From NCBI RefSeq assembly GCF_000374425.1, contig NZ_KB894354.1, positions 62,001 through 126,000 on the forward strand: 64,000 bases of DNA, in the 5' to 3' direction. Origin of the DNA: Acinetobacter tjernbergiae DSM 14971 = CIP 107465 (GTDB taxonomy: Bacteria; Pseudomonadota; Gammaproteobacteria; Pseudomonadales; Moraxellaceae). The translations under genes were made by a program, and so were the position numbers. Shown here in pieces: positions 7,386-22,049 of this stretch (its first letter is position 1; every line of letters begins with the position of its first letter). Under the pieces are notes generated by a model that was not told where the DNA came from, searched no databases, and saw only the letters and a list, made by a program, of their open reading frames with translations.

Positions 7386-8309
7386 CTATTCTCGAAAAAA
7401 ATTGGCATATAAGCCATCAAAAACGTAATTGGATAATTCTAATAATTGCTGATCATCTTGGATTTTACTTCTTAATCCCTGAATCACTTTCTCAATTCCA
7501 ACGGCCTCAGGCGGTTCAATACCCCCTACATCAAGGAAATGCACAATCTCTGCAATTTTCTTTAATGCAGGTTTTTGATGTAGTGAGAAGCTATGCAACA
7601 GCACTTCAAAGGTAACTAAATGCTCAATATGGCTAAACGTAGCACCATCAAAGTCAAAGCCTAAAGCAGATGATGGGCAGTCTGTTGGAGTTTCTAACCA
7701 GAGGAATGTTGCATGAGGGTCAATAAAGTTTTGAATGAGCCAAGCCGAGGCTAAGCGGTCAATCCAAGGTCGTTTTCGGGTTGCCCATACTCTGTTTTGA
7801 AAATTTTCTTGCAGCAGTGTTTGGATATTGCCTTGGTTCATCTGAGGTTCATTGATTTCGCCTAGACGTAGAATAATTTGTTCAAGGCTATTTATTTCAT
7901 TGCTAGTCTGTGTTTTGGCTTCTGTTGGGAAAAAGTCAATTTCAATAAGTGATTCAAGGTTTTTGCGTAATTTACGAATCTGTTTTAGGGATTCTTTTTT
8001 ATTGATTTCATTTAGATTTTCTCTTAACCCAATCAATTGCTGATAAAGCAAATCATATTCATCTTTGCGACTAAACATTTCAGCCAAATTGAGCTGTTCG
8101 GTCGAAGTCGTTTGAAAAATATAGGCTGTACCATGCTCTGAAATGAGGTCATTCGCAATCGGTGTAAATTTTTCTGAATGCTCGGCAGGTAAGAGGTAAA
8201 CACCGTCTCTGAGTGTTGCTGCGCCACTTGCTTTAATTGACCGCCATACTCGCATACGGGCAGTGGTGCTTTGAGTGGGGAGTGATGAAATGAGTAATGA
8301 TATATTCAT
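7386..8309 (-). CDS. chrB: Chromate resistance regulator/protein ChrB
   Basis: A 307-residue ChrB-family protein. Residues 1-90 form the N-terminal domain (LLISSLPTQSTTARMRVWRSIKASGAATLRDGVYLLP), a basic coiled-coil-like segment follows (about 90-140), and the C-terminal ChrB domain begins with RVWATRKRPWIDRLASAWLIQNFIDPHA. ChrB is described in other proteobacteria as a chromate-responsive regulator of chrA. The start at 8309 agrees with the family N-terminus. A 38-bp palindrome covers the start codon and the bases upstream, a natural autoregulatory operator. chrA follows immediately. Confidence 0.9.
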   Translation of the reverse strand: MNISLLISSLPTQSTTARMRVWRSIKASGAATLRDGVYLLPAEHSEKFTPIANDLISEHGTAYIFQTTSTEQLNLAEMFSRKDEYDLLYQQLIGLRENLNEINKKESLKQIRKLRKNLESLIEIDFFPTEAKTQTSNEINSLEQIILRLGEINEPQMNQGNIQTLLQENFQNRVWATRKRPWIDRLASAWLIQNFIDPHATFLWLETPTDCPSSALGFDFDGATFSHIEHLVTFEVLLHSFSLHQKPALKKIAEIVHFLDVGGIEPPEAVGIEKVIQGLRSKIQDDQQLLELSNYVFDGLYANFFRE

Positions 8310-8345
8310 GTAATATACTCAACAAATTTGTTATATATATTACAT
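8308..8345. promoter_or_regulatory. Large palindrome over chrB start, candidate operator
   Basis: Nested symmetry: outer arms ATGTAATATA and TATATTACAT (perfect inverted repeats) enclose a central perfect palindrome AACAAATTTGTT, with three-base spacers CTC and ATA. The outer arm overlaps the chrB ATG. The arrangement suggests binding by a dimer or tetramer, most simply ChrB itself. No strong ribosome site is visible between the palindrome and the ATG. Confidence 0.6.
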
Positions 8346-8543
8346 ATAAAATTAATTTTATAAATCTAAAAATTGCATATATTCATGTGTTTTATATCGA
8401 AGTGATTTGAAAAATAGATGACAGAAGTCCAATTATTTTGATTTCTATATCTTAAAAAAACATAAATAACGCATTTTTTCTTATTTTTAATCATAAAACA
8501 TGCCGCATACCATAAGTCTATATTGTTGAAAGATCATCTAATT

Positions 8544-9566
8544 ATGGGCATTAAGAACACTAAGCCGTTAATTGTTACAGCGATCGTCCTTGTGGCGATT
8601 GTTGCTTTTATTGTCTATCAAAATCAAAAAGATGCTGCACCTGTTCAGTCTAAAAACAACAAAGCAGTGGTGATTGCCTATCAAACAGGCGTTGATCCCA
8701 CCAAGGTTGCACAGGCGAATGGTGATTATGAACGTGATAGTCATCAAGCAATTCAATGGCGTAAATTTGATGCGGGTTCAGATGTGGTCAATGCATTGGC
8801 TTCGGGTGATGTGGTGATCGGCAATATCGGTTCTAGCCCTCTGGCTGCTGCCGCAAGTCGTGATTTACCGATTGAGGTATTTCTGGTGACGGCTAAATTA
8901 GGCGGTTCAGAAGCATTGGTGGTAAGTAACAAATCAGGCATCAAAAACCCGCAAGATTTGATTGGTAAAACCATCGCCATACCATTCGTTTCAACCACGC
9001 ATTACAGCTTATTGTCAGCGCTCAAGCATTGGAATATTGCGGATAACCAAGTCAAGATTATTAACTTACGTCCACCAGAAATCACTGCCGCTTGGGAACG
9101 TGGTGATATTGATGCGACTTATGTTTGGGAACCTGCATTAAGTAAAGTCAAAGCCAGTGGTCATGTCTTAACAGACTCGAAACAAGTCGGCGAGTGGGGC
9201 GCGCCAACCTATGATTTATGGGTGGTTCGTAAAGATTTCGCTGAAAAAAATCCAGAGTTTTTAAAAGCCTTTGTCCAAACCAGTTTGAAACAAATTGAAG
9301 CTTATAACCAAGATCCAAAAGCATTTGAACAAAATGCAGACAGTATCCAGAAAATTGCTCAGCTGACAGGCTCTGATGTGAAAGATATTCCTTTATTGTT
9401 GTCAGGCAATATTTATTTGAATGGTCAGCAACAACACGCGACTTTAGCGGGTGAGTTCGCCAAAAATATTTTCGATACCGCAACATTCCTCAAAAGCCAA
9501 GGCAAGGTGGATCAAGTCAAACCTGATTATCAAGCGAATGTCACCACCCAATTCTTACAGCCATAG
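8544..9566 (+). CDS. tauA: Taurine/sulfonate ABC transporter binding protein TauA
   Basis: Periplasmic solute-binding protein for taurine or related alkanesulfonates. The ATG at 8544 gives 340 residues beginning MGIKNTKPLIVTAIVLVAIVAF, a signal anchor; a TTG at 8523 is an alternative start seven codons upstream. Family motifs are VVIAYQTGVDPTKVAQ, KFDAGSDVVNALASGDVVIGNIGSSPLAAA, and ATYVWEPALSKVKASGHVLTDS. It heads a tauABCD cluster with short spacings (9 bases to tauB). In other bacteria such clusters are expressed on sulfate starvation through CysB/Cbl; no clear site for those regulators was recognised upstream. Confidence 0.93.
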   Translation: MGIKNTKPLIVTAIVLVAIVAFIVYQNQKDAAPVQSKNNKAVVIAYQTGVDPTKVAQANGDYERDSHQAIQWRKFDAGSDVVNALASGDVVIGNIGSSPLAAAASRDLPIEVFLVTAKLGGSEALVVSNKSGIKNPQDLIGKTIAIPFVSTTHYSLLSALKHWNIADNQVKIINLRPPEITAAWERGDIDATYVWEPALSKVKASGHVLTDSKQVGEWGAPTYDLWVVRKDFAEKNPEFLKAFVQTSLKQIEAYNQDPKAFEQNADSIQKIAQLTGSDVKDIPLLLSGNIYLNGQQQHATLAGEFAKNIFDTATFLKSQGKVDQVKPDYQANVTTQFLQP

Positions 9567-9575
9567 GAGATATAA

Positions 9576-10367
9576 ATGAGCGTATTAGCTGCCGAGCATC
9601 TTCATTTAACTTTTCCAAAGCAGACTGTGCCTGTTCTTCAAGATATCAATTTGAAGATTGAAGAAGGCACTTTGACTGTGATTTTGGGTGAGTCTGGTTG
9701 TGGTAAAACAACATTACTGAATATTTTGGCGGGTTTTCAAAAACCAAGTTCGGGGCAGATTACACTGGATCATGAAGTTGTCACTGCACCCGATGCACGC
9801 CGTGCAGTGGTATTTCAGGATCATGCGCTGTTACCTTGGTTAAATGTCTCTGAAAATATCGGTTTTGCTTTGCAGCTCAAAGCTTTAAAAGCGCAAGAAA
9901 TTCAACAGCAAGTCGATGCAATTCTTAAAATTGTTGGCTTGAGTCATGTGGCTCAAGCCAATATTTGGGAACTGTCAGGTGGTATGAAACAACGGGTTGG
10001 AATCGCACGTGCCTTGATCAGTCATGCGGCATTCATTTTATTGGATGAGCCTTTTGCTGCGCTTGATGCGTTTACCCGTGAAACCATGCAGCAGTTGGTG
10101 CTGGATTTATGGATTGAACAAAATAAATCCTTCTTCCTGATCACACATGACATTGAAGAAGCACTTTTGCTGAGTAATCAACTGGTGTTGATGACGGCTC
10201 GTCCAGGTAAGATTGTCGAAACTTTAAAATTGGATTTCGCTGACCGTTATAAGCAAGACGAATCCATCCGTGCGATTAAATCCGATCCAAAATTTATTCA
10301 ATTACGCGAGCAATTGTTTGAACGTTTACGTGTGCAGAAACAGGCAGGGCATGAGGTGGCTGTATGA
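9576..10367 (+). CDS. tauB: Taurine ABC transporter ATPase TauB
   Basis: ATPase of the taurine importer, 263 residues. Walker A GESGCGKTT (38-46), Q-loop FQDHALLPWLNV, signature LSGGMKQRVGIARAL, Walker B FILLDEPFAALDAFTRE and switch His (ITHDIEEA) are intact. The LLPW variant after the Q-loop is typical of nitrate/sulfonate/taurine ATPases. A strong AGGAG ribosome site precedes the ATG. The last four bases overlap the tauC start, indicating coupling. Confidence 0.94.
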   Translation: MSVLAAEHLHLTFPKQTVPVLQDINLKIEEGTLTVILGESGCGKTTLLNILAGFQKPSSGQITLDHEVVTAPDARRAVVFQDHALLPWLNVSENIGFALQLKALKAQEIQQQVDAILKIVGLSHVAQANIWELSGGMKQRVGIARALISHAAFILLDEPFAALDAFTRETMQQLVLDLWIEQNKSFFLITHDIEEALLLSNQLVLMTARPGKIVETLKLDFADRYKQDESIRAIKSDPKFIQLREQLFERLRVQKQAGHEVAV

Positions 10368-11245
10368 CGGGGCAAGCGGAAAATACAATCTATGATGTGA
10401 CTAAAACTGAACCACTTAAAGATGAGAACAATCAACAATCAAATTCTATATTCAGCTTGATTTTAGCTTTTGCTGTTCGCCATCGTAGTTTAGCGCTCAG
10501 TCTTTCCAGTGTTTTGAGCGTATTGGTAATTTGGTATTTGATCACGGCATTAAAAATTGTTCCGAGTTTATTTTTGCCAAGCCCACAAGCGGTATGGCAG
10601 AAGTTCCTTGAAGTCAGCCAGCAAGGTTTTATGAAAGCCACCTTATGGCAACATTTGGCAGCAAGTATTTCTCGTGTTTTGTTGGCTTTAGTTGCCGCGA
10701 TTGCCATTGGTGTGCCTTTAGGTTTATGGATGGGCTTAAACAAATGGGTGCGTGCGGTGCTTGATCCATTGGTTGAGCTATTGCGTCCAATTCCACCCTT
10801 GGCCTATTTGCCACTATTGGTGATCTGGTTTGGGATTGGTGAAACCACCAAAGTGCTTTTAATTTTCTTTTCGATTCTTGCACCTGTGATTATCAGTAGC
10901 ACCCATGGTGTACTCAGCCATCAGCTCAATCGTGAACGTGCCGCTTTATCTTTAGGGGCAAGCCAATCCCAAGTGTTTTGGCATGTGATTCTGCCGACAG
11001 CCTTACCGCATATTTTAACGGGTATTCGTATTGGTTTAGGTGTGGGGTGGTCGACTCTAGTGGCTTCGGAATTAGTCGCAGCAGATCGCGGTATTGGTTT
11101 TATGGTCCAGTCGGCGGCGCAGTTCTTAATTACCGATACAGTAGTTCTGGGCATTATTGTCATTGCGACCGTCGCAGTCGGTTTTGAATTGTTTTTGCGT
11201 TGGTTACAGAAGCAACTCTCTCCTTGGTATGGTCAACAGTTATAA
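10364..11245 (+). CDS. tauC: Taurine ABC transporter permease TauC
   Basis: Inner-membrane permease of 293 residues with an extended hydrophilic N-terminus of about 40 residues and six predicted helices. The family motifs RPIPPLAYLPLLVIWFGIGETTKVLLI and the EAA loop (RAALSLGASQSQVFWHVILPTALPHILTGIRIGLGVGW) are clear. It overlaps tauB by four bases and precedes tauD by 16 bases, giving a single transcription unit for taurine uptake and desulfonation. Confidence 0.94.
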   Translation: MTGQAENTIYDVTKTEPLKDENNQQSNSIFSLILAFAVRHRSLALSLSSVLSVLVIWYLITALKIVPSLFLPSPQAVWQKFLEVSQQGFMKATLWQHLAASISRVLLALVAAIAIGVPLGLWMGLNKWVRAVLDPLVELLRPIPPLAYLPLLVIWFGIGETTKVLLIFFSILAPVIISSTHGVLSHQLNRERAALSLGASQSQVFWHVILPTALPHILTGIRIGLGVGWSTLVASELVAADRGIGFMVQSAAQFLITDTVVLGIIVIATVAVGFELFLRWLQKQLSPWYGQQL

Positions 11246-11261
11246 GTGTGAGTAGTAGAAG

Positions 11262-12107
11262 ATGACCTTAAATATTGAAGTTATAAAACCAACAATCGGT
11301 GCAATTATTCATGATGTTGATTTAAACACGGCTGATGAAAATACTACGCAACAAATTCAACAGGCTTTGCTGGATCATCACGTGATTTTCTTCCGCAATC
11401 AGCAGCTTGCACCTCAGGTACAAGCTGAGCTTGCTCGCGGTTTTGGTTCTTTGCATATCCATCCAATTTTCCCAACGGTTGAAAATGTACCTGAAATCAT
11501 TGTATTGGACAGTTGGAAACAAGACTTACGTGATAATGAATTATGGCACACCGATGTGACTTTCAGTCAGAAACCGCCATTGGGTTGTGTATTGCAAGCG
11601 ATTAAGATTCCACCTGTCGGCGGTGATACACTTTGGTCGAGTGGCGCGGCGGCATTTGCTGCATTGGATCAAGACTTGCAGCAAAAGTTAAAAGGCTTAA
11701 CCGCAACACATGACATCCGTCAGTCTTTCCCGATTGAGCGTTTTGCACATAATGATGTTGAACGTCAAAAACTGGAAGAAACTTTTAAGCGTAATCCACC
11801 CGTTGTTCATCCTGTGGTGAGAACGCATCCAGTAACGGGTCAGCCGATTTTGTTTGTGAGTGAAGGTTTTACCACGCGTATTAATGAGCTGGATGAGACT
11901 GAAAGTGCTGAATTGTTGCAATATTTATTTGCGCATGCCACCAATGAGCAGTTCCATTTGCGTTGGCAGTGGCAAGCCGGTGATGTAGCGATTTGGGATA
12001 ATCGTTGTACACAGCATAAGGCGTTATTTGATTATGGGGATGCGCATCGGATTATGCATCGTGCCACGATTAATGGTGATGTGCCGTTTTATCAAGCAGC
12101 AAGTTAA
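11262..12107 (+). CDS. tauD: Taurine dioxygenase TauD
   Basis: Fe(II)/2-oxoglutarate dioxygenase that releases sulfite from taurine in the cytoplasm, giving aminoacetaldehyde and succinate. 281 residues. The metal triad H96, D98 (in WHTDVTF) and H252 (in CTQH) and the 2-oxoglutarate Arg R267 (in MHRATI) are all present at the spacing known for TauD. It is last in the tauABCD unit and is followed by an intrinsic terminator at 12122-12152. Related sulfonates could also be substrates. Confidence 0.94.
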   Translation: MTLNIEVIKPTIGAIIHDVDLNTADENTTQQIQQALLDHHVIFFRNQQLAPQVQAELARGFGSLHIHPIFPTVENVPEIIVLDSWKQDLRDNELWHTDVTFSQKPPLGCVLQAIKIPPVGGDTLWSSGAAAFAALDQDLQQKLKGLTATHDIRQSFPIERFAHNDVERQKLEETFKRNPPVVHPVVRTHPVTGQPILFVSEGFTTRINELDETESAELLQYLFAHATNEQFHLRWQWQAGDVAIWDNRCTQHKALFDYGDAHRIMHRATINGDVPFYQAAS

Positions 12108-12121
12108 AATTTAGTTTTGAT

Positions 12122-12152
12122 AAAAAGCTTGGGTAAAATCCTGAGCTTTTTT
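12122..12152 (+). terminator. Terminator after tauABCD
   Basis: AAAAAGCT and AGCTTTTTT form a stem with an inner GG/CC pair and a T-run, 14 bases after the tauD stop. Confidence 0.8.
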
Positions 12153-12225
12153 ATTTTACGGTTCGATCATCTTTGTGGAATCTTATGGCGATCTCATCCT
12201 ATTGGGGGATAAGCCTTCAGCTGGA

Positions 12226-12350
12226 GTTACTTTTGTTTCGGCAAAAGTAACCAAAACCATTGTCATCCACAAAACCTGTCTTCTTTCGGCATCTCTTTAA
12301 AGTAATCGCAGAAATAGCATCCGATTAATCTCACGCAGGTTGTGGATGAC
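12226..12350. repeat. Intergenic structured repeat, copy with two inverted repeats
   Basis: The gap between tauD and the AraC gene holds a perfect 10-bp inverted repeat GTTACTTTTG / CAAAAGTAAC (12226-12251) and a second one formed by GTCATCCACAAAACCTG (12262-12278) and CAGGTTGTGGATGAC (12336-12350). Two of its words recur with one or two changes in the gap at 16608-16923 (TTACTTTGGTTTCGCC at 16760-16775; CAGGTTGTAGATGAC at 16853-16867), so both gaps carry members of one dispersed, non-coding repeat family. Confidence 0.6.
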
Positions 12351-12414
12351 CTGTAGCACCAGTAATTCCTGAGATATGTTCATTTTTTATGGGTAGACAT
12401 TACGAATTAATCAT

Positions 12415-13455
12415 TTAAGTAAGGTGAGTCTCTTGTTTATAGATCGAAGGCGCTTGTCCCGTCCAGCGTTTAAAGGCACGTCGGAATTCACGTAATTCAC
12501 TAAAGCCCAGCTGCAGGCTAATCTCACTCATGGATAGGTTCTTTTCCAATAACTGTTTGGCTTTACGCTCCAACACATTTTGTCGGATTTGTTGAAAGCT
12601 CAGGCCCTCTAATAACAATTGTCGTCTTAAATGGCGTTCGCTGATGCGTAATTGTTCAGCAGCTTGTTGCATCTCAAAACGTTCTGGTAAATGCTGTTCA
12701 ATCAAATGATCAAGTAAATGCACATAGCCGACCTGATTGAGCTGGTCGATTTCTTTTAGGGCCTGTTCACAGATGTGTAGCGCAGTTGCATAGTTGGCTG
12801 GGCTGTAATTTTTTAAGCTGCGCTGCAGTAGGCTGCTGCTAAAACGCATGATATTTTTATCACTGTTAAATTGGATTGGGCAGCCAAAGAGTTCGTGATA
12901 TTGCTGTTGATATTCGTTTGGTAAATAGCTGAGCTCAAGATTCACCACATCATCATGATCGCCCAGCATTGCGTTTAAACAGGTGATGATGCTGCTAAAT
13001 AATTCATCATAGAAAAAGGCTTTGAGTTCATTGCAGGGATAGGGTTCAGTGACTTCCAATTCACAAAGATCAGCATGGATAGAAAAGTCGATATTCAAGA
13101 CACTGCCAGAAATCCGATGGTAGCGCAGCGCAATGTCTAAAGCATCTGCAACCGTTTTACAGGATTGCATGGCAAAGCCCAAAATCCCCATGGAGATCAG
13201 ACCTTCGCTACTGCCAAGCTTTAAGCCTAGGTTAGGTTGTTGATAAACTGTCATGGCTTGACGAACAACATCACAGAGTTGACTAAAACGAACAACACTT
13301 TGGGTCTGCTGGATTTGCGTGATGTCTAAGCCTGAATCCTGAAACCATATGGCATAGTCCCAATGCTGTTGTTCAGCATAGTGAATCAGGCTGGTCAAAA
13401 TAGTGGGCGGCGTAAACTGTTGTAAGTGTGTGTGATTGATCATTCGTTTAGGCAT
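12415..13455 (-). CDS. AraC-family regulator, OruR-like; candidate sphingoid sensor
   Basis: Transcription regulator of about 346 residues. It has an N-terminal arabinose-binding-like effector domain typical of the OruR/SphR group (FQDSGLDITQ, LGLKLGSSEGLISMGILGFAMQSCKTVADAL) and a C-terminal AraC HTH domain (ISERHLRRQLLLEGLSFQQIRQNVLERKAKQLLEK ... SEISLQLGFSELREFRRAFKRWTGQAPS). The frame is open to an ATG at 13509, but that leaves only 63 bases to the divergent gene and has no ribosome site. The ATG at 13455 fits the family N-terminus better. It is divergent from a ceramidase-like gene, the arrangement expected of an activator of that gene. Effector identity is inference from the neighbours. 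Confidence 0.8.
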   Translation of the reverse strand: MPKRMINHTHLQQFTPPTILTSLIHYAEQQHWDYAIWFQDSGLDITQIQQTQSVVRFSQLCDVVRQAMTVYQQPNLGLKLGSSEGLISMGILGFAMQSCKTVADALDIALRYHRISGSVLNIDFSIHADLCELEVTEPYPCNELKAFFYDELFSSIITCLNAMLGDHDDVVNLELSYLPNEYQQQYHELFGCPIQFNSDKNIMRFSSSLLQRSLKNYSPANYATALHICEQALKEIDQLNQVGYVHLLDHLIEQHLPERFEMQQAAEQLRISERHLRRQLLLEGLSFQQIRQNVLERKAKQLLEKNLSMSEISLQLGFSELREFRRAFKRWTGQAPSIYKQETHLT

Positions 13456-13575
13456 AAGTCCGTTTTGCCCCCCAAAAAGAAGTTCCTTTAACCCTTTTGG
13501 GTATCGCATAATTTTGATTAACTTTCAACATGCTTTATGACAAGCAACTAGAAAAAGAATTGAAAGGAAGTCGTG

Positions 13576-15324
13576 ATGTATCAAGTGGGTTGGGATAAGC
13601 AGCAAATTAAAATAACACCGAAAGGTTATGCCATGTTTGGTTATGGGCAATGGTCTCATCGTGCCTATGAGCAGCGTACGGCTTTATATGCCCGTAGTGT
13701 GAGCATTGTCGATCAACACGGCAATCGACTGCTGATGTGTTGTCTTGATTTAGGTTGTATTACCCATGCCATACGCAGCCAAACAGTCGAGCGACTCACA
13801 CAAATCCTTGATTCACAATTTGATGAAAATCAACTGGTGTTAATGGCAACCCATACTCATTCTGGCCCTGGTGGTTGTGGCTATGAAGCTTTATATAATA
13901 TGCCAACACCTGGCTTTGTGCCTGAACATTTAACTGCCATTGTTGAGGCAATTGTACTCAGTATTCAAAATGCGATTGCGTCCGAACAAGACACTGAGAT
14001 TTTCTTGGAGACACAACATTTTCCAGAGCATACCGCTGTCGCATGGAATCGTTCAATCAAAGCTTATAATCGTAATCCAGAAGTTCTGTCACGGACGGAA
14101 GCTGAAACACATTTAGCTCTGAACCGAGAAATGCAGCTGATTGGTTTCTACCGTGAACAAAAACTACAGTCCTTGATTTCCTTATTTGGCGTACATGCAA
14201 CCTGTTTAGGAAATTCCTTAAACGCCTATGATGGCGATAATAAAGGTTATGCAGCCGCATTTTCTGAGCAGGCTTTAATTGAGCAAGGGGTTCAAAATCC
14301 AGTCACGATTTTTGCGCAAGCAACCGCAGGCGATGTATCACCGCATTTTCATGGCAAAGATCAGCTTAAGATTCGTAATCAAATTAAAGGCGAGCAGGAA
14401 TATCAATACGCGCAACAAAATGGGCGCTATCAAAGTGAACTGGCTCTGACTGCTGTGCAACAAACTATTCCTGAAAAACTGCAAAAAGTCGAAGGCAAGA
14501 TTGATGCCGTTATGTCCTATGTAGACCTGAGTAATATTGAAATTCCTGCTGAATTTGCATATGGACAATTGGGTGCAAAAACCAGTCAGCCTTGTCATGG
14601 TACGGCTTTTTTTGCAGGAACACCTGTCGATGGTTTAGGTGCGCCAAAATTTTTAATTAAAGGGATGCAGTTTTTAGCCGATCAATTTCACAAACAAAAA
14701 ATCAAACATCCGAAAGCAGCAGATTTTGCAGCGTATCAGCAGTTGTATGCATCACAAGGGCCGAAACAGATTCTACTGGAAGCGGGTGCTAAAAAGATTT
14801 TAGGTCAACCGATTGGTTTTCCGCCGAGTATTCTTGATCCGTTGATTGCAGAAATGAACCGACAAGTGAAAGCTGGGGCGATTCAGCACAGTCCTTTAGT
14901 CCCGAGCGTAGTTCCCTTACAAATTGTGCGACTAGGTCAGTTAGCACTGGTCTGTTGTCCAGGAGAATTTACCACCATCGCAGGGCAGCGTGTGGTCGAT
15001 ACAGTGAAACAGACGCTTACTGCACAAGTATCCATTGAACGAGTGTGGTTAGCTTCATACTGCAATGATTATATGGGCTATGTCACGACCTATGAAGAAT
15101 ACCAACAGCAAGCTTATGAGGGTGGGCATACCTTATTTGGTCAATGGACATTGGCAGCTTGTCAGAGCAAATTCAAAGGATTAGCAGAACAATTATTATT
15201 AGAAAAAACTAAACGTCATTACGATGAAATGACACGACCACAGCCGATTCCAGAAAACGAACTCGCAAAACGCACCAATCATGGCAATTTAAAAACTGCC
15301 GTTAGCCAAGGAGAGGCAGTATGA
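13576..15324 (+). CDS. Neutral/alkaline ceramidase-like amidase (catalytic domain only)
   Basis: Zinc amidase predicted to cleave the N-acyl bond of ceramide or a related lipid. 582 residues from the ATG at 13576 (AAAGGA seven bases upstream; a GTG sits one codon earlier). Family signatures are present: ATHTHSGPGG with candidate zinc ligands H93/H95, H207 in SLFGVHATCLGN, the NRS motif with candidate catalytic S160 (AWNRSIKAYNRNPE), CPGEFTT with a candidate Glu ligand, and MGYVTTYEEYQ with a candidate Tyr ligand. Unlike secreted Pseudomonas ceramidase it has no signal peptide and ends soon after the catalytic domain, lacking the C-terminal Ig-like domain. It overlaps the next gene by four bases. 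Confidence 0.85.
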   Translation: MYQVGWDKQQIKITPKGYAMFGYGQWSHRAYEQRTALYARSVSIVDQHGNRLLMCCLDLGCITHAIRSQTVERLTQILDSQFDENQLVLMATHTHSGPGGCGYEALYNMPTPGFVPEHLTAIVEAIVLSIQNAIASEQDTEIFLETQHFPEHTAVAWNRSIKAYNRNPEVLSRTEAETHLALNREMQLIGFYREQKLQSLISLFGVHATCLGNSLNAYDGDNKGYAAAFSEQALIEQGVQNPVTIFAQATAGDVSPHFHGKDQLKIRNQIKGEQEYQYAQQNGRYQSELALTAVQQTIPEKLQKVEGKIDAVMSYVDLSNIEIPAEFAYGQLGAKTSQPCHGTAFFAGTPVDGLGAPKFLIKGMQFLADQFHKQKIKHPKAADFAAYQQLYASQGPKQILLEAGAKKILGQPIGFPPSILDPLIAEMNRQVKAGAIQHSPLVPSVVPLQIVRLGQLALVCCPGEFTTIAGQRVVDTVKQTLTAQVSIERVWLASYCNDYMGYVTTYEEYQQQAYEGGHTLFGQWTLAACQSKFKGLAEQLLLEKTKRHYDEMTRPQPIPENELAKRTNHGNLKTAVSQGEAV

Positions 15325-16607
15325 GTGATTTAAAACAAGGCATCTGGTCAAACTGGTCAGGCTTTCAAAAAGCCAAGCCACAACAGATTTTACAACCTGC
15401 AAATATTCAGGAATTACAGTCCATTGTTCGTGAACAGCAAAAAATACGGGTCGTGGGTGCAGGGCATTCCTTTACGCCCTTGGTGTGTACCGATGCGACC
15501 TTAGTATCTTTAGATCGAATTTCAGGTGTTGCATCTTTCGATCTAGAACGCTGTCAAAGCAATATTTATGCGGGTACACGTTTATACGATTTAGATCAGC
15601 ATTTACAGCAGCAATCCATCAATCAGGCTTTGATGAATCAGGGTGACATTGATCAGCAAAGTCTGGCGGGTGCGGTTTCTACAGGCACACATGGGACAGG
15701 AGCCGATTTACATTGTATTTCGGCCTATGTTGAAGCTTTTGATTTATTGACTGCATCAGGTGAAATTCTGAAATGCAGTCGAACAGAACATCCTGAAATT
15801 TTTGCAGCAGGGCGAGTCTCTTTGGGTAGCTTGGGTATCTTGACCCAGATCACCATGCAGAATCGCCCGCGCTATAAACTCAAAGAACACATTGAACTTT
15901 GTCCAGTCGAAGACATGATGCAGCATATTCAGCAATCGAAACATCAGCATCGACATATTGAGTGCTTTGTGTTTTCCCATGAGAAGCAGTTGATGTTGAA
16001 AACCTTGAATGAGACGGATGAAGCGGTTTTGCCGCGTAAGGAAAATTTTCCATCTGATGATACTTTATTGACCTTATGCTCTGAGCTGACCAAAAACTTT
16101 CCTTCACTGAATCCTTATTTACAAAAACTTTTGGGAATCTTTGTTAAACCGACCACCTATGTCGATTGGTCGAGTAAGATATTTCCGACACCACGAAATA
16201 CCAAGTTCAATGAAATGGAATATCAGATTCCTGTTGATCGTGGAATTGAGTGTTTGGATGAAGTGTTACATGCTTTAAGAACGTATAAAGTTGCCACCTT
16301 TTTTCCGCTCGAATTTCGCTTTGTCAAAGGCGATGATATTTGGCTCAGTCCGTTTTATCAGCAGGATTCCATTTCGATTTCAGTGCATCAATATCATAAG
16401 CAAGACCCGAAGTTGATTTTTGATGTGGTTGAGCCTATTTTGCAGAAATATCGAGGACGTCCGCATTGGGGTAAAATGCATCAAATGAACAAGACAGAGC
16501 TTCGAGCTTTATATCCAAAGTGGGATGATTTTATGGCTTTACGTCGGCAGCTTGATCCAGAAGCTAAGTTTTTAAATCCCTATCTGGAAAAGCTGTTTTT
16601 AGGGTAG
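15321..16607 (+). CDS. FAD-linked oxidase, D-arabinono-1,4-lactone oxidase family
   Basis: A 428-residue flavoenzyme. The N-terminal FAD_binding_4 domain carries VGAGHSF (the His commonly bears covalent FAD in this family) and STGTHGTGA. The C-terminal ALO domain carries the family PHWGK motif (RGRPHWGKMH). Relatives oxidise sugar lactones or primary alcohols. Here translation is coupled to the ceramidase-like gene (ATGA overlap), so oxidation of a sphingoid-type headgroup alcohol is a reasonable guess rather than ascorbate chemistry. From memory, an oxidoreductase (sphC) is also in the Pseudomonas sphingosine regulon. No signal peptide is seen. Confidence 0.85.
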   Translation: MSDLKQGIWSNWSGFQKAKPQQILQPANIQELQSIVREQQKIRVVGAGHSFTPLVCTDATLVSLDRISGVASFDLERCQSNIYAGTRLYDLDQHLQQQSINQALMNQGDIDQQSLAGAVSTGTHGTGADLHCISAYVEAFDLLTASGEILKCSRTEHPEIFAAGRVSLGSLGILTQITMQNRPRYKLKEHIELCPVEDMMQHIQQSKHQHRHIECFVFSHEKQLMLKTLNETDEAVLPRKENFPSDDTLLTLCSELTKNFPSLNPYLQKLLGIFVKPTTYVDWSSKIFPTPRNTKFNEMEYQIPVDRGIECLDEVLHALRTYKVATFFPLEFRFVKGDDIWLSPFYQQDSISISVHQYHKQDPKLIFDVVEPILQKYRGRPHWGKMHQMNKTELRALYPKWDDFMALRRQLDPEAKFLNPYLEKLFLG

Positions 16608-16711
16608 TTTTAACTTGGGTTTGACTTAAATGTTTATTTAATTTATTGAAAAATAATTAATTTAACGGAGTCTTACCGAGTTTTTATCCATTTTAGGATA
16701 AGCCACTTCGT

Positions 16712-16753
16712 CTTGCGCTTCACCAAAGCTTTAGTCGCTTTGGCTTGCTCAGG
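16712..16753. repeat. 42-bp direct repeat, copy 1
   Basis: Begins CTTGCGCTTCACC and ends GCTTGCTCAGG; matches copy 2 (16815-16856) at 39 of 42 positions. Inside it CCAAAGC and GCTTTGG form a perfect 7-bp inverted repeat. Confidence 0.85.
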
Positions 16754-16814
16754 CTCGCCTTACTTTGGTTTCGCCCTGAGAAGTGTTTGAGGCTTGGTAA
16801 GGTGTATTTAAACG

Positions 16815-16856
16815 CTTGCGCTTTGCCAAAGCTTTAGTCGCTTTAGCTTGCTCAGG
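16815..16856. repeat. 42-bp direct repeat, copy 2
   Basis: Begins CTTGCGCTTTGCC and ends GCTTGCTCAGG; three substitutions from copy 1, 103 bases downstream of it. It is directly followed by the shared word CAGGTTGTAGATGAC. Confidence 0.85.
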
Positions 16857-16923
16857 TTGTAGATGACATTCCCTCATATCAGATGGTTTTTTAGGATCAC
16901 GATTAAATAAAAAAGGTATAGAC

Positions 16924-18087
16924 ATGTTGGATCATTATTTTAAACAACTCAATCTCGATCTCAAAAAACAGAGGATTGCGACCCCGCAACTTATTGTGGA
17001 TGCGGCTGCGTTAAAACAAAATATCCAACATGTGCAACTGCGCTTGTCACATGCGCCACATTTAAAAGCCCGTTTGGTGGTGAAATCTTTAGCGAGTTTA
17101 GATTTACTCAAGTTGTTGTCTGAACAGCTTAATACGCAACGCTTTATGGTATTTCATCAACCGCATATCATTTCGATTCTAGAAAATTTTGCTGAAGCCG
17201 ATATTCTGTTGGGCAAACCAATGCCTGCTCAAGCAGTACGTCATTTTTTTGAGCAACATGCAGAATGGTCAAATGCCAACATTCAATGGCTGATTGATAC
17301 CAAGCAACGCTTACAACAGTATCTTGAGATTGCTCAGCTCTATTCTCTGTGCTTGGATGTGAATATTGAGATTGATGTTGGTTTGCATCGTGGTGGGGTG
17401 CAGTCGACTCTGCAACTGACAGAAATTTTAAAGCTAATTCAACAGTACCCGCAGTATTTAAAACTCTCAGGTTTGATGGGCTATGACGCACATGTCACCA
17501 AAATTCCAGCCATCATTAAAAAACCTGAACTGGCTTATCAAAGTTCGCAGCAGACCTATGCCAACTATCAAAGATTGATTCAAAAACAGTTCCCAACGCT
17601 GTGGCATGATGAGCTTTGTTTTAATGGCGGTGGCAGTCCAACCTTTAGTTTTCATACGACTGAAAGTGTCTGTAATGATTTGTCTTTTGGTTCAATGTTA
17701 TTAAAACCGAGTGATTTTGACAGTGATTTTTTAAAGGCTTTACAGCCTGCTTTATGGATTGCATCGCCAGTCTTAAAAGTTTTACCTTTTACCCAGCTAC
17801 CATCAATGTCTTTACTCGATAAATTGCCACATAAGTATAAGGCACTGTTTATTTATGGCGGATATTGGCTTGCCAATTATGTTTATCCAAAACAAGCGCA
17901 TCCACATGCATTGTATGGGCGTAGCAGTAATCAGGAGTTGGTGAATGTACCGAAGCATTGTGATATTCAAGTCGATGATTTTGTGTTTTTAAGACCGACG
18001 CAGAGTGAAGCGATTATTCCTCAATTCTCAGAATTAAAACTATATCAGCAACATGTTTTTGAGACATGGCAAACTTTCCGTGAATGA
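16924..18087 (+). CDS. Type III-fold PLP enzyme, D-threonine aldolase/D-serine dehydratase-like
   Basis: A 387-residue protein of the alanine-racemase-N fold. The candidate PLP lysine is K54 in ARLVVKSLASLD. Further fold motifs are VNIEIDVGLHRGGVQ, LSGLMGYDAHVTKIP and FNGGGSPTFSFH, with a C-terminal DSD1-like beta domain (YGGYWLANYV, FVFLRPTQSEAIIPQF). The usual HxC zinc motif of eukaryotic D-serine dehydratase is replaced by RPTQSEA, so the metal dependence and reaction may differ. It follows the flavoenzyme after a 316-base gap with repeats. From memory, a similar protein (sphB) lies in the Pseudomonas sphingosine regulon. A role in cleaving an amino-alcohol backbone is inference. Confidence 0.8.
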   Translation: MLDHYFKQLNLDLKKQRIATPQLIVDAAALKQNIQHVQLRLSHAPHLKARLVVKSLASLDLLKLLSEQLNTQRFMVFHQPHIISILENFAEADILLGKPMPAQAVRHFFEQHAEWSNANIQWLIDTKQRLQQYLEIAQLYSLCLDVNIEIDVGLHRGGVQSTLQLTEILKLIQQYPQYLKLSGLMGYDAHVTKIPAIIKKPELAYQSSQQTYANYQRLIQKQFPTLWHDELCFNGGGSPTFSFHTTESVCNDLSFGSMLLKPSDFDSDFLKALQPALWIASPVLKVLPFTQLPSMSLLDKLPHKYKALFIYGGYWLANYVYPKQAHPHALYGRSSNQELVNVPKHCDIQVDDFVFLRPTQSEAIIPQFSELKLYQQHVFETWQTFRE

Positions 18088-18109
18088 AAGGCTGTTGAGC
18101 GGCTGAACT

Positions 18110-18478
18110 TTAAAATACATCAGTTAAATGACAGCTTTTCGCTTCAGTCAAATTTTCAATGGAATCGACCAGTAAAACATTGGTATCTTTTTCGCTTGTA
18201 TATGCAGCAATGACTTCTGCGTAAATAGGCTGTTTCAGCTTTGCTGCTGTTGATAAAAAGCCTGATACTGCCTTTTTGTTAGACCAATCGGCATCTTTCA
18301 ACACATATTTATTTTGAGTAAGATCACATCGCGTTAAAATGGCTTTTTTATCCTGAATGGTTAAGGTGCCAATAAAAATATCCATTGCTTCTTTGGGTTC
18401 GGTTGAATTGGCAAAGGCGGTTAAAGGATGAACTAGGTTATATGCAAGCAAAGAAAATATAAGAGACATTTTTTTCAT
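18110..18478 (-). CDS. Small exported protein of unknown function
   Basis: 122 residues from the ATG at 18478, which has AGGAAAAA upstream; an ATG at 18499 lacks such a site. A signal peptide covers about the first 24 residues (MKKMSLIFSLLAYNLVHPLTAFA), leaving a mature domain of about 98 residues with two cysteines (C in TRCDLTQ and in AKSCHL) that could form a disulfide. No family is recognised. It is oriented with the FadL-like gene, convergent with the PLP-enzyme gene, and probably periplasmic. Confidence 0.65.
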   Translation of the reverse strand: MKKMSLIFSLLAYNLVHPLTAFANSTEPKEAMDIFIGTLTIQDKKAILTRCDLTQNKYVLKDADWSNKKAVSGFLSTAAKLKQPIYAEVIAAYTSEKDTNVLLVDSIENLTEAKSCHLTDVF

Positions 18479-18622
18479 TGAATTTTTCCTAGCGATCAAA
18501 TCAACTGTAAAAATAACATGGTCGAGATGCTAATTTAATCAGTTTCTTTGACGCAAGGAAATCGTTGAGTCGGAACAGTGAAAAGTATTGCTACAAGACA
18601 ACATGTTGATTAAGCCGAATCA

Positions 18623-19864
18623 TTAAAAACGATAGCCAATTTTTAGACCGTAGGCGATTGCGCTGTTATTTTTAAAATCAGCTTGTTCTGCGATCGACTT
18701 AACACCTTCAATTGGGATGTAATACGTGCCATCTTCCGCAACCGCATCACCTAACCAGAAGTATTTCATTCCACCTGCAATAAAATAATTCGGTGCAGGG
18801 TTGAACTGAACACCTAAGCCAACGCCCCAAGCGCCTTTAGTCGGATTTAAAGTCGATGCAGGATTGCCTGTGCCTGAGTCCCAACTCACTTCAGTGGATG
18901 CACTCCATTGTTCAGTAAATTGATGCCCGAGACCTAAAGTCGTAGCCCATTGATCTTTTTGGTAGCTGTCTAGATCAAAGCCACCTGTATAAGCTCCTCC
19001 ACTGATTAAGGTCGTCAGATATTCAGTCATAGCACCAAACTGAGTCGGACGAATATGGAATTCTTTCCAATTGACCCAACGGAAATTGGCATAGGCAAGC
19101 GTGTCTTTATAGACACCTGTTTGAAAATCAATATTGACGGATTGTGGTGTGCTAATGCTGGTTTTACTTGCTGTGGTCACTTCCAAAGGCTGACCAAACA
19201 TAGTTTCAGTCACTTGCATATCGTGGTCGATCTTAGAGCGATAGGTCACTGCTGCTTTCAAGGCAATATCTGGAATTTGATAACTCAAACCTGCCAGCCA
19301 GCCCACAGCATGGTTTTGTTTAAATTTCGCATCATAGCCATTAAAGGCTTCACCATAGGAATTGCCACGAAGTACGACATCACCTTTGACGGATTGATAG
19401 ACTGCACCACCATACAGTTGAAAGTTGCTGAAAGGACTAATCCCCAAAATCATGCTGATACTTTCGGTATCGACATTGACCGATGTGCCTTGTTGGGTAA
19501 ATTCATTATCCGAAAAGGTATTATTAGATTGCATCGGATAATGGATATCTGCACCAAAAGGCTGATCATAGAGCAGACCAAAGCTCATTTGATCAGTCAG
19601 TTGCAGTTTCAAAGCAGCATTGTAGTATTGGAAACTATTGCCCATATTGCCTGTATTTAAATTTTGCGAGTCATTGACCAGTTCAGGGCGATTGCGAATT
19701 TTTCCTGAAATATCGGGGTCAACAGCGGTTGCATTGACCTCTACATAATTACCATTTTCGAGAAAGGGTAAAATAGATTGCCCTGATTGATCTAATGCAG
19801 AAGCATGATTCACTGCACTTGTAAATATTGTGCATATACCAAGCACAATTGGATTGAATTTCAT
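18623..19864 (-). CDS. FadL-type outer-membrane channel for hydrophobic compounds
   Basis: Outer-membrane protein of 413 residues with a signal peptide (MKFNPIVLGICTIFTSAVNHASA), an N-terminal hatch-like region and many amphipathic beta strands ending in an aromatic C-terminus (KIGYRF), as needed for BAM insertion. Internal segments (FGLLYDQPFGADIHYP, KAAVTYRSKIDHDMQV, GLGHQFTEQWSASTEVSWDSG) are characteristic of the FadL/OmpP1/TodX family, which passes fatty acids and other hydrophobic molecules. The start at 19864 has AGGA at good spacing; the ATG at 19873 overlaps that site. Its position beside ceramidase-like genes suggests uptake of ceramide, sphingosine or a similar amphiphile. Confidence 0.85.
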   Translation of the reverse strand: MKFNPIVLGICTIFTSAVNHASALDQSGQSILPFLENGNYVEVNATAVDPDISGKIRNRPELVNDSQNLNTGNMGNSFQYYNAALKLQLTDQMSFGLLYDQPFGADIHYPMQSNNTFSDNEFTQQGTSVNVDTESISMILGISPFSNFQLYGGAVYQSVKGDVVLRGNSYGEAFNGYDAKFKQNHAVGWLAGLSYQIPDIALKAAVTYRSKIDHDMQVTETMFGQPLEVTTASKTSISTPQSVNIDFQTGVYKDTLAYANFRWVNWKEFHIRPTQFGAMTEYLTTLISGGAYTGGFDLDSYQKDQWATTLGLGHQFTEQWSASTEVSWDSGTGNPASTLNPTKGAWGVGLGVQFNPAPNYFIAGGMKYFWLGDAVAEDGTYYIPIEGVKSIAEQADFKNNSAIAYGLKIGYRF

Positions 19865-20076
19865 TTTGATCATCCTTGCAAAACGGTATTTTATTTTTAA
19901 AAACGATATTTTTATTAACAGCCATTTTTCTATCTATAGCAGCATGATTTCACTCATGATTTGAAATAGAAAGCCAATGTCCATACTGTAGTGAAACATT
20001 TTTTTTAATTAGGAAGTAGGGTTAGAAATGATCAATATGGGGGGCGAATCGGTCAGATAGATTGATTTTAGGCAAT

Positions 20077-20107
20077 AAAAAACCTTGTATCGAGACACAA
20101 GGTTTTT
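20077..20107 (-). terminator. Terminator of the universal stress protein gene
   Basis: AAAAACCTTGT and ACAAGGTTTTT form an 11-bp perfect stem just past the uspA-type stop codon; T-runs on both strands make it potentially bidirectional. Confidence 0.85.
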
Positions 20108-20125
20108 GAGATTTCTATTTAAATT

Positions 20126-20566
20126 TTATTGTTTAACAATCAACACTGGAATATGTGATTCAGTTAAAACTGCACGAGCGACACTGCCGAGCAATAAACG
20201 TTTTACCCCTGTACGCCCATGTGAACCCATAATAATAAGGTCTGCGCCAATTTCATCAGCTATAAAAATAATACCTTCACTGGCTGCACCATGTTGGATT
20301 TTAGTTTTCACTTCAATACCATCACGAATAAAAGATTGAGCAATATCTTGTAGTTGAAGTTTAGCGTGGGCTTCCGCTTGCATAAAATGGTCAGTAATCG
20401 CCGGAGCAACTTGATAAAAGTCGACACCGACAAATGGATCAACCGCAACCACACTCAGCACCGTGACTTTTGCCCCTGATAATTTTGCTAGAGACAATGT
20501 GTGTTCAACGGCCGCATAAGAAATTGGAGAATCATCAACAGCAACTAAAATATTTTGATAAGACAT
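20126..20566 (-). CDS. Universal stress protein, UspA family
   Basis: 146-residue cytoplasmic single-domain Usp. It starts with the family core (NILVAVDDSPISYAAVEHTLSLAK) and has the ATP-binding signature GSHGRTGVKRLLLGSVARAVL near the C-terminus, so it belongs to the nucleotide-binding subgroup. Such proteins help survival in stasis and oxidative or osmotic stress, but their biochemical action is unclear. Single gene with its own terminator. Confidence 0.92.
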   Translation of the reverse strand: MSYQNILVAVDDSPISYAAVEHTLSLAKLSGAKVTVLSVVAVDPFVGVDFYQVAPAITDHFMQAEAHAKLQLQDIAQSFIRDGIEVKTKIQHGAASEGIIFIADEIGADLIIMGSHGRTGVKRLLLGSVARAVLTESHIPVLIVKQ

Positions 20567-20779
20567 ATTTACTCCTTATAGTTTATCGTTGTAAAAGATA
20601 AAAGTATAAGGAGTTGATAACATATTGAACTCTGTCTAGCAAATGAGATGATGCTCAAAAACCTATGATTACGCTGGAAATAATATAGAAATGTAGGAAA
20701 TCCCCTAGCAAAATATAGTGCTAAGAGAATCTCTGTATTTTTGTAATTTGGTCTCATATTTAAAATAATAGGAATACGT

Positions 20780-21070
20780 GTGTTACTCAGTTTAGAAGCA
20801 TTTAAACAACAAAGATTTGATCAAGTTGCTGCCAAAATTATGGCTGATCCAAAAGCTTATTTGGCATTTGATTCGGTTTCAGATTTTTATAAAGCCGTAT
20901 GGTTGGATGAATTTCCACAAGGGACAACATGGTCAGCCACGGGATTGGATGATGGTGCAGAGCAGTTTTATGCGGTGATTGAATATGCAAATCACTATCT
21001 CTATATCAGTCGGACTGAACGAGTAACGGTAAAATTAGGTATAAGACATCATTACAATAAAAATTACTAA
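20780..21070 (+). CDS. Conserved-looking hypothetical protein, 96 residues
   Basis: Not recognised. It starts at a GTG (20780). The sequence is rich in aromatic residues (FDSVSDFYKAVWLDEFPQG, EYANHYLYISRTERVTVKLGIRHHYNKNY) and has no signal peptide or membrane segment. The codon use looks like its neighbours and the frame lies alone between two well-supported genes, which favours a real gene. A small cytoplasmic protein is the most that can be said. Confidence 0.55.
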   Translation: MLLSLEAFKQQRFDQVAAKIMADPKAYLAFDSVSDFYKAVWLDEFPQGTTWSATGLDDGAEQFYAVIEYANHYLYISRTERVTVKLGIRHHYNKNY

Positions 21071-21184
21071 TCCGAGCAGTCATTAATTTTTACGTGTTCA
21101 GATTTTGTGATTGAAATGAGAATGATATAATTTGCTGCGATGATAAAACCTTAATTAAAACTAAACTAAACGGAAATTTAAAAA

Positions 21185-21676
21185 ATGGCACATCAATTTA
21201 CGGTAAATGAAACAATTCATGGCGTTTCAATTGAAGATTTTTCAAGATTAGTTGCTATGACTTCATTGCATGAAGCAGTGTGTAAACGTATTCCAGGTGA
21301 AAACTTAGAAATTGTTGAATCAGTTGTAAAAGGCGATATTTATACACTACGTCGTGAATATAATCTTGATGTAAATATCCCAGAAGTAGCAAAAAAATTA
21401 TTAAAAAATGCATTCCGTTTAAAACGTTCTGATATTACAGATTTGAAAAATTTAACCTCAACTGTGGAGTTAGGTGCAAACTTACCTTTAGAAGCAAAAG
21501 CTGAACGCAAGGTGACAGGAAACAGCGAAAAAGTAGAGATTGCACTGACTTGGACTGTTAAAGTTAAAGTACCTTTGATTGGTGGTATGCTTGAAAAGCA
21601 TGCAGAAGGCGAAATTCGTAAATTTAGCCAACTAGAGATTGAAATTGTAGAAGAAGAATTAAAGAAAAACCTATAA
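21185..21676 (+). CDS. DUF2505 family protein
   Basis: 163 residues, matching the DUF2505 (START/SRPBCC-like lipid-binding fold) pattern: an N-terminal HQFTVNETIHGVSIEDFSRLV strand-helix, alternating strands in the middle and a C-terminal KHAEGEIRKFSQLEIEIVEEELKK helix. Cytoplasmic and of unknown function. It starts at an ATG and is followed by a terminator at 21691-21716. Confidence 0.75.
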   Translation: MAHQFTVNETIHGVSIEDFSRLVAMTSLHEAVCKRIPGENLEIVESVVKGDIYTLRREYNLDVNIPEVAKKLLKNAFRLKRSDITDLKNLTSTVELGANLPLEAKAERKVTGNSEKVEIALTWTVKVKVPLIGGMLEKHAEGEIRKFSQLEIEIVEEELKKNL

Positions 21677-21690
21677 TTCTGAATAGATTG

Positions 21691-21716
21691 AAAACTCTCC
21701 GTAAGGGGAGTTTTTT
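21691..21716 (+). terminator. Terminator after the DUF2505 gene
   Basis: AAAACTC/GAGTTTT stem with a GTAA loop and a T-run. It may also serve the convergent small membrane gene ending at 21720. Confidence 0.8.
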
Positions 21717-21719
21717 ATT

Positions 21720-21923
21720 TTAGAAACGAAGAAAATAGGGCAGGATTGAAAGAATCACGCCAATGACACTTAGCAACGTTGTACTCTCGATAAAGTATGG
21801 GTAAATCATGAGGACGAGACCACAGACTAAAGGCACGGTCATCTTTTGTTTTTTGCCATACATAAAATAGCCTAAGCCAATCGACCCGAAGATAACACCT
21901 AGAAAAAGTTGGGTTGCGTTCAT
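21720..21923 (-). CDS. Small membrane protein, 67 residues
   Basis: From the ATG at 21923 (AAGGTATGG upstream) the product MNATQLFLGVIFGSIGLG... has two to three hydrophobic helices separated by a basic loop (MYGKKQK). It resembles the small amino-acid-transport-like or DUF-type membrane proteins common in Acinetobacter, but no family is firmly recognised. The frame extends upstream to 21956; that part looks non-coding. Confidence 0.6.
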   Translation of the reverse strand: MNATQLFLGVIFGSIGLGYFMYGKKQKMTVPLVCGLVLMIYPYFIESTTLLSVIGVILSILPYFLRF

Positions 21924-22049
21924 TGTGTTTTGCCATACCTTATTTTTATTGCGCATATACTATGGCAAGATTCTTAAATGAAAATTATAGAAGCAGAATT
22001 AAATATCTCATACTATATGATTGAGTATTTAAAAAATTATAAGGTTCTG

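Follow-up and report, generated by a model that had tools for sequence, protein, structure and literature searches.

We analyzed a 64,000-nucleotide stretch of the Acinetobacter tjernbergiae DSM 14971 genome (contig NZ_KB894354.1, positions 62,001 to 126,000; hereafter, the window) and describe in it a gene cluster that resembles the SphR regulon of Pseudomonas aeruginosa. The genome carrying the cluster spans 3.69 Mb in 50 contigs. The cluster contains an AraC-type regulator, a neutral-ceramidase homolog (here, the amidase), a flavin adenine dinucleotide (FAD) oxidase, a type III pyridoxal phosphate (PLP) enzyme, a small exported protein, and an outer-membrane channel, together with two operator-like elements (Table 1). 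All six open reading frames (ORFs) of the original prediction, which had placed five genes and a small exported protein here, are present where it put them. The last ORF, which it ended at 19864, is confirmed, but that position is a second Met and the ORF extends further. The amidase and FAD-oxidase ORFs overlap by 4 bases.

Table 1. Features of the cluster, with positions in the window
Feature	Position	Strand	Family or basis
AraC/OruR-type regulator, SphR-like	12415-13509	-	PF12625 + PF12833
Operator-like element AGTCCGTTTTGCCCCCCA, AraC/amidase promoter	13457-13474	+	
Neutral-ceramidase homolog without signal, predicted N-acyl-sphingoid amidase	13573-15324	+	PF04734
FAD oxidase, AldO-like, SphC ortholog without Tat signal	15321-16607	+	PF04030 + PF01565, TIGR01679
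Type III PLP enzyme, SphD ortholog without Tat signal	16924-18087	+	PF01168 (Ala_racemase_N)
Small exported protein, no family	18110-18499	-	Next gene after outer-membrane protein, same strand
FadL-type outer-membrane channel, predicted lipid uptake	18623-19873	-	Names and domains of homologs
Operator-like element TGACCGATTCGCCCCCCA, upstream of outer-membrane gene	20038-20055	-	

As the reference for the SphR regulon, we used a locus from a Pseudomonas-type genome (L048), which was identified as the SphR locus by its layout and not from a named P. aeruginosa sequence. This locus contains a small cytochrome c, a FAD oxidase and a PLP enzyme that each carry a twin-arginine translocation (Tat) signal, a convergent PF13557 porin, and a divergent AraC gene, and it matches the published PA5324-PA5328 layout (PMC3900636). 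When the L048 SphC was searched against this genome, the single match was the window FAD oxidase (41% identity, 352 bits). Both proteins score above the cutoff of TIGR01679 (for the window protein, 454 bits versus a cutoff of 292, with the match starting at residue 9). With the window PLP enzyme as the query, its own genome gave a single match, as did each of three SphR-type genomes (G122, G170, and G061), where the match stands at the SphD position. By these searches, the two proteins are the orthologs of SphC and SphD, and the original view of both as counterparts of SphR-regulon members is upheld.

Catalytic residues are kept. In the FAD oxidase, which aligns to the alditol oxidase 2vfr, His49, Glu331, Arg333, and Lys385 are invariant across 54 aligned sequences; we take these to be the His of the FAD motif, the catalytic Glu-x-Arg, and the Lys of the HWGK motif. 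The PLP enzyme has the type III PLP fold of D-threonine aldolase and D-serine dehydratase, and the PLP lysine is present. PF04734 covers the amidase almost completely (positions 1 to 508 of 509, starting at residue 3; 315 bits versus a cutoff of 32). Aligned to the P. aeruginosa neutral ceramidase 2zws, the amidase keeps His97, Arg160, His204, Glu411, Tyr448, and Tyr460 as well as the serine nucleophile (Ser250 of the chain, presumably Ser274 of the precursor). The positions come from the alignment, and the zinc, nucleophile, and catalytic roles are those that we take these residues to have. Thus, the amidase had rightly been called ceramidase-like: it is a neutral-ceramidase homolog with the checked active-site residues in place. 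Against the NCBI neutral-ceramidase equivalog NF041649, it scores 225 bits, below the cutoff of 1200.

The three enzymes lack export signals, a feature absent from the original prediction, and this would change how the pathway works. The amidase is 583 amino acids long in an open frame of 586 codons, only 3 more than the protein, and because its domain starts at residue 3 there is no room for an upstream signal peptide. Similarly, the FAD oxidase has 428 residues in an open frame of 433 codons, and with TIGR01679 matching from residue 9, no signal fits. The Tat status of other FAD oxidases and PLP enzymes was judged by motif and by eye. In the alignments, the Tat motif was found in none of 37 Acinetobacter FAD oxidases and none of 36 Acinetobacter PLP enzymes, and in 15 of 17 FAD oxidases from outside Acinetobacter. 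The two exceptions are L036 and L053; a motif match in L036 was overruled by eye, as it sits in a far-upstream frame extension without a hydrophobic stretch. In the FAD-oxidase tree, Acinetobacter forms one clade with L036 as its sister, and, should the midpoint root be right, it is nested within Tat-bearing groups. The trees themselves are unrooted, with the midpoint used for drawing, and the direction of change depends on that root; given it, signal loss in the Acinetobacter FAD oxidase would be the simpler reading. Homologous short ceramidases also occur elsewhere, for example in records named Alcanivorax, Marinobacter, Agitococcus, and Perlucidibaca, and in most of those inspected the domain begins with the first Met or close to it. 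For one of them (L130), the longest frame begins with a hydrophobic stretch, so that its start is unsure.

A second difference lies at the oxygen gatekeeper site of the FAD oxidase, which aligns to Ala113 of GalDH and is Gly108 in the window protein. The GalDH exchange A113G raised O2 reactivity 70- to 300-fold (PMC11099136), and a review gives Gly or Pro as usual at this site in oxidases and Ala as usual in dehydrogenases, while noting exceptions (PMC11505616). Gly occupies the site in all 37 Acinetobacter FAD oxidases and in L036 and L053, i.e., in 39 of 39 signal-less copies, versus Pro in 8, Ala in 5, and Ser in 2 of the 15 Tat-bearing sequences. In an overlapping second set drawn from named genomes, 36 of 36 signal-less copies had Gly. 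We rejected a strict coupling between the lack of a signal peptide and a Gly gatekeeper; the association is near perfect, with one exception (L195, taken up below). It is important to note that since Pro is usual in oxidases too, a difference of Gly from Pro in the Tat forms says less than a difference of Gly from Ala. An ORF with a cytochrome-type CXXCH motif lay on the same strand within 2.5 kb of the FAD oxidase in 8 of 18 loci from outside Acinetobacter, none of them with Gly at the gatekeeper. No such ORF was found in 40 Acinetobacter loci or in positions 11001 to 22000 of the window.

For the outer-membrane channel, we examined the best 120 of 2,771 homologs. The named ones are mostly members of the OmpP1/FadL family or transporters, and many carry PF03349, as do several relatives that are 87 to 88% identical to the window protein. 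The window channel itself has no PF03349 match and only a sub-threshold barrel match in the Pfam and NCBIfam searches, and a PDB sequence search with it returned no match. PF13557, present at L048, is absent from it, and SphA belongs to COG4313/PF13557 (PMC4493636). Thus, of what had been proposed for this protein, the FadL type is supported by the names and domains of its homologs, and the family searches do not bear out an SphA-type protein. Elsewhere in the genome (contig C24, near 25404; locus L003), two tandem FadL-type channels are 48 to 49% identical to the window channel. The small exported protein has no Pfam or NCBIfam match, and its single-sequence structure model is uninformative (pLDDT, 44). 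It is kept beside the outer-membrane gene in L085 to L088 (72 to 89%), the only such cases among the 40 fetched Acinetobacter loci.

The AraC protein belongs to the same subfamily as SphR. With the window protein as the query against three Pseudomonas-type genomes, the AraC beside sphBCD was the best match in two, and in the third it came second, 3 bits behind; in the reverse search, the SphR-type AraC put another AraC of this genome first and the window protein second by 2 bits. The prediction of an OruR/SphR-type regulator therefore stands as regards the subfamily and the closeness to SphR, but not as a clean reciprocal best match. The start of the protein is likely Met19 (13455), in which case the operator-like element AGTCCGTTTTGCCCCCCA would lie outside the gene. 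Relative to the SphR half-site TGNCCSNNRNNSNCC (PMC3900636), AGTCCGTTTTGCCCCCCA has 2 mismatches, which is not significant alone, and TGACCGATTCGCCCCCCA has 1.

The element occurs together with the AraC gene. Its core pattern (G[AT]CCG-N4-5-CCCCCC, sought within 220 bp upstream of the amidase) was found in 15 of 15 loci with a divergent AraC gene and 0 of 6 without (Fisher P, 2e-5), counts that come from related loci and are uncorrected for kinship. In an overlapping set of named Acinetobacter loci, it was found in 26 of 27 with AraC and 0 of 10 without. In three AraC-less loci (L091, L092, and L093), the flanking promoter DNA is recognizable and the core pattern has decayed. The core pattern occurs twice in the window, in the amidase/AraC promoter and in the channel-gene promoter, and it lies upstream of the channel in 4 of 5 aligned loci, the fifth (L087) being cut short by the slice. 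A 17-base pattern drawn from the two window sites has no further exact copy in the genome and one extra copy with 2 mismatches, inside an ABC-transporter ORF. Because the element occurs jointly with the AraC gene and at both promoters, control of both the amidase promoter and the channel by this AraC protein is likely. This joint occurrence, the Gly pattern, and the fold of the PLP enzyme are directly supported by the data.

We next consider how far the genes travel together. Among 149 Acinetobacter genomes, the amidase was found in 39. A PLP gene of nearly full length was found in 60, and a further 9 had split genes or fragments of it. Of the 39 amidase-bearing genomes, 35 also had the near-full-length PLP gene (Fisher P, 1e-13; phylogenetic kinship is uncorrected in all co-occurrence tests). 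Loci were fetched for 20 of the 39 genomes with the amidase and for 20 of the 25 with the PLP gene and no amidase. Among the amidase loci, the order AraC (-), amidase, FAD oxidase, PLP enzyme (+) recurs; the FAD oxidase adjoins in 19 (one truncated), and a full-length PLP gene is present in 17 and AraC in 14. The PLP-only loci each contain a FAD-oxidase sequence, split in one or two of them. In other genera, a FAD oxidase lies beside the PLP homolog in 16 of 29 short (4-kb) loci. A scan of 78 named loci included 37 labeled Acinetobacter (A. haemolyticus, A. venetianus, A. gyllenbergii, A. beijerinckii, A. guillouiae, and A. gerneri, among others), where the FAD oxidase (35/37) and an intact PLP gene (33/37) lie next to the amidase. 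The laboratory strain A. venetianus RAG-1 (L193) is one of the carriers of the cluster. Both genes were present in two of the other 41: L169, from a Moraxellaceae metagenome-assembled genome (MAG) and closely similar to the Acinetobacter loci L102 and L103, and L195, from a Panacagrimonas MAG (Nevskiaceae), with AraC, amidase, Tat-bearing FAD oxidase, and Tat-bearing PLP enzyme in the same order. Across 244 genomes of the order, 53 had a strong PLP match (at least 180 bits), 48 had PF04734 above the cutoff (which includes secreted ceramidases), and 30 had both, so that a ceramidase was found in 30 of 53 genomes with the SphD-type gene versus 18 of 191 without (Fisher P, 2e-12; 7e-12 leaving out the window's own genome). 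The grouping of these genes is not due to chance.

Two genomic sites harbor the unit. The first, which the window shows, adjoins a taurine-type system; at the second, the unit typically has an acyl-CoA synthetase on one side and thrS on the other. In the window, the DNA directly upstream (8523-12107) holds taurine-type ABC transporter genes, identified by eye, and a TauD dioxygenase (NF007104, above the cutoff). The acyl-CoA synthetase was considered as a pathway member and rejected: it borders the unit at the second site, yet in this genome it stands beside thrS without the cluster, and we therefore treat it as a positional neighbor. Decay of the pathway is repeated in Acinetobacter, with split or truncated genes in L092, L094, L104, and L116 and PLP remnants in G261, G272, G324, G370, G371, G376, and G390. 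One record that carries the label A. baumannii (L167) has 62% identity, and its name may be wrong. Beside the PLP gene of L100, an ORF (7814-9433) fuses a Rieske domain to a glutamate-synthase-type domain, and ORFs of the same sequence cluster are also found in L117 and L122.

We consider it moderately probable that this cluster is a relative of the Pseudomonas SphR/SphBCD system with signal-less enzymes, FadL-type uptake, cytoplasmic breakdown, and O2 as the electron acceptor. The gene content, the SphC and SphD orthology, the kept catalytic residues, the missing signals, and the missing SphB are directly supported. In the proposed pathway, the FadL-type protein would carry ceramide or sphingoid base over the outer membrane, and the amidase would free a fatty acid and the sphingoid base. 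The SphC-type flavoenzyme would then oxidize the C1 alcohol and reduce O2 to H2O2, as suggested by the gatekeeper Gly and the lack of a cytochrome partner encoded nearby. By the Cahn-Ingold-Prelog rules, C2 of D-erythro-sphingosine is S since C3 outranks C1; once oxidized to an aldehyde or acid, C1 outranks C3, and the same arrangement at C2 is R, i.e., D. Oxidation of a D-erythro base (2S,3R), with the bonds at C2 unchanged, would thus give a D-configured (2R,3R) 2-amino-3-hydroxy aldehyde or acid, and a D-specific beta-hydroxy amino acid lyase would fit the next step. The fold of the PLP enzyme is that of such lyases, which would place a C1-oxidized sphingoid in the substrate class of the SphD fold. 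The SphD-type enzyme would cut between C2 and C3 to yield a C2 amine (glycine if the substrate is the acid) and a fatty aldehyde (2-hexadecenal from sphingosine). Overall, the chemistry would be deacylation, C1 oxidation, and retro-aldol cleavage, with the AraC protein sensing the sphingoid base and turning on the amidase operon and the channel.

A more specific version of this pathway is tentative, and we doubt it somewhat more than we trust it. In this version, the pathway moved from the periplasm to the cytoplasm, and the flavoenzyme, once a dehydrogenase coupled to a cytochrome, became an oxidase that uses O2; the SphC product would be a D-configured, C1-oxidized sphingoid, from which SphD would release a C2 amine (glycine) together with a long-chain aldehyde. 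Such a route would be free of phosphorylation, unlike that through sphingosine-1-phosphate (S1P) lyase.

Several observations weigh against the proposed pathway. The SphC of L195 is Tat exported yet has Gly, without an adjacent cytochrome (in total, 1 of 16 Tat copies has Gly), and the gatekeeper rules themselves have exceptions, with Pro, the most frequent residue among the Tat forms, also occurring in oxidases (PMC11505616). Compartments need not match within a genome: the short ceramidase is separate from a Tat-exported SphC/SphD pair in four genomes from outside Acinetobacter (L129, L130, L131, and L132), and in L195 the signal-less ceramidase adjoins Tat-exported SphC and SphD partners. 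The channel (with the small protein) is found in only 4 of the 20 fetched amidase loci. Moreover, 25 Acinetobacter genomes have the PLP gene and no ceramidase, so the FAD-oxidase/PLP pair may act on free bases or have another role. The likeness of the element to the SphR operator was not accepted as proof of SphR-type regulation, since none of the comparisons was significant: single-site shuffles against the half-site gave P values of 0.6 and 0.06, a matrix from four Pseudomonas-type sites placed the elements at ranks 10 and 24 within the 64-kb window, and 515 of 3,000 shuffles equaled the promoter-to-promoter alignment. The element also lies at the 5' end of the AraC gene, so that loss of the gene may have removed the element too. 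Finally, P. aeruginosa could do without SphD in growth tests (PMC11893366), and the His-x-Cys/Asp metal pair near the C terminus is, as judged from sequence, missing in the PLP enzyme, where the window has RPTQSE; Glu362, within this region, is invariant. For the dehydratase, the pair (H351/C353) was taken from the titles of mutant structures, and for D-threonine aldolase we assume it to be His-x-Asp/Cys near the C terminus.

We weighed four other explanations. The cluster may chiefly be a defense against antimicrobial sphingoid bases, in which the oxidase detoxifies and the ceramidase and channel are secondary; we regard this as possible, if rather unlikely. Its appeal lies in P. aeruginosa sphBC deletions, which grow worse with sphingosine while sphD is dispensable (PMC11893366), and in Acinetobacter lineages that retain the FAD-oxidase/PLP pair without ceramidase or channel. 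However, a channel and a ceramidase in the unit would raise the internal sphingoid base. Defense is also compatible with the proposed pathway, as it alters the purpose and not the chemistry. Somewhat more doubtful is a PLP enzyme that acts on the oxidized base as a racemase, dehydratase, or amine lyase and not as an aldolase. The missing metal pair of its fold class would agree with this, and the class includes D-serine dehydratase and D-threo-3-hydroxyaspartate dehydratase, whose structural Z scores lie within 3 of those of the aldolases; as set out above, a D-specific lyase would fit the predicted oxidation product.

We think it unlikely, by a shade more again, that the same three steps degrade a different substrate from bacteria, plants, or fungi, be it an N-acyl amino alcohol or a sphingoid lipid (e.g., of the phytosphingosine type or a bacterial sphingolipid). 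The genera with short ceramidase homologs, such as Alcanivorax, Marinobacter, and Agitococcus, need not meet animals, and in P. aeruginosa sphBC matter with phytosphingosine and sphinganine too (PMC11893366), but a sphingoid skeleton is indicated by the orthology of SphC and SphD and by the active site of the ceramidase, and no further enzyme gene was seen recurring inside the unit. That the enzymes are unrelated neighbors whose resemblance to the SphR regulon reflects chance clustering of large families is very improbable: the ALO-type and alanine-racemase-type families are indeed large, and SphB/SphC orthology is hard to judge according to the authors of the P. aeruginosa study (PMC11893366), but single-copy orthology, recurrent adjacency, co-occurrence, and the PLP-gene remnants beside the ceramidase gene in G370 speak against it.

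If the cytoplasmic, O2-using pathway is correct, bacteria break down sphingosine without making S1P first, and an enzyme pair can switch both compartment and electron acceptor at once. On skin and in the airway, sphingoid bases act as antimicrobials, and the spread of the cluster in A. haemolyticus and relatives is therefore of interest. In P. aeruginosa, sphBC are necessary for sphingosine loss; the product was not identified, a reactive aldehyde is suspected, and its nature is a stated open question (PMC11893366), for which the cluster would offer a definite stereochemical prediction. The signal-less, cytochrome-free versions of the enzymes should be easier to purify and assay. A 2014 paper notes SphR and some regulon orthologs in A. 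haemolyticus in one sentence (PMC3900636); among the matches listed in the open-access literature, we found nothing on the Acinetobacter cluster, its missing signals, or the gatekeeper change.

Compared with known systems, the enzymes have clear relatives from which they differ in specific ways. The amidase shares with CerN (2zws) the PF04734 catalytic domain and the zinc and nucleophile residues; unlike CerN, it is short, lacks a signal peptide, and falls far below the cutoff of the NCBI model. The FAD oxidase has the FAD His motif, Glu-x-Arg, and HWGK Lys of AldO and the aldonolactone oxidoreductases (2vfr, 8ot8, and 8qnc), but, unlike AldO, it falls in its own subfamily together with Tat-exported SphC relatives. 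With D-threonine aldolase, the beta-hydroxyaspartate aldolase BhcC, and D-serine dehydratase, the PLP enzyme has in common the type III fold over nearly the whole chain, the PLP lysine, and the D-beta-hydroxy amino acid logic; it differs in its low identity (14 to 18%) and in the metal ligand pair, which is not conserved.

The closest comparison is with the P. aeruginosa SphR regulon, which comprises cerN, sphA, and sphBCD (PA0845 and PA5324-PA5328). The original prediction held that its equivalents are gathered in one locus here. This is true of SphC, SphD, and the ceramidase and not of SphB or the SphA-type channel. The two systems have in common the SphC and SphD orthologs, a neutral-ceramidase homolog, and an AraC protein of the same subfamily, and the cluster, too, includes an outer-membrane channel with a common promoter element. 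Unlike in the SphR regulon, the genes of the cluster all lie in one locus, none of its three enzymes (ceramidase, SphC, and SphD) has an export signal, an SphB cytochrome is missing from the neighborhood, and a FadL-type channel replaces the COG4313 SphA. Further, the gatekeeper of the cluster SphC is Gly, whereas the four Pseudomonas-type loci have Ala or Ser.

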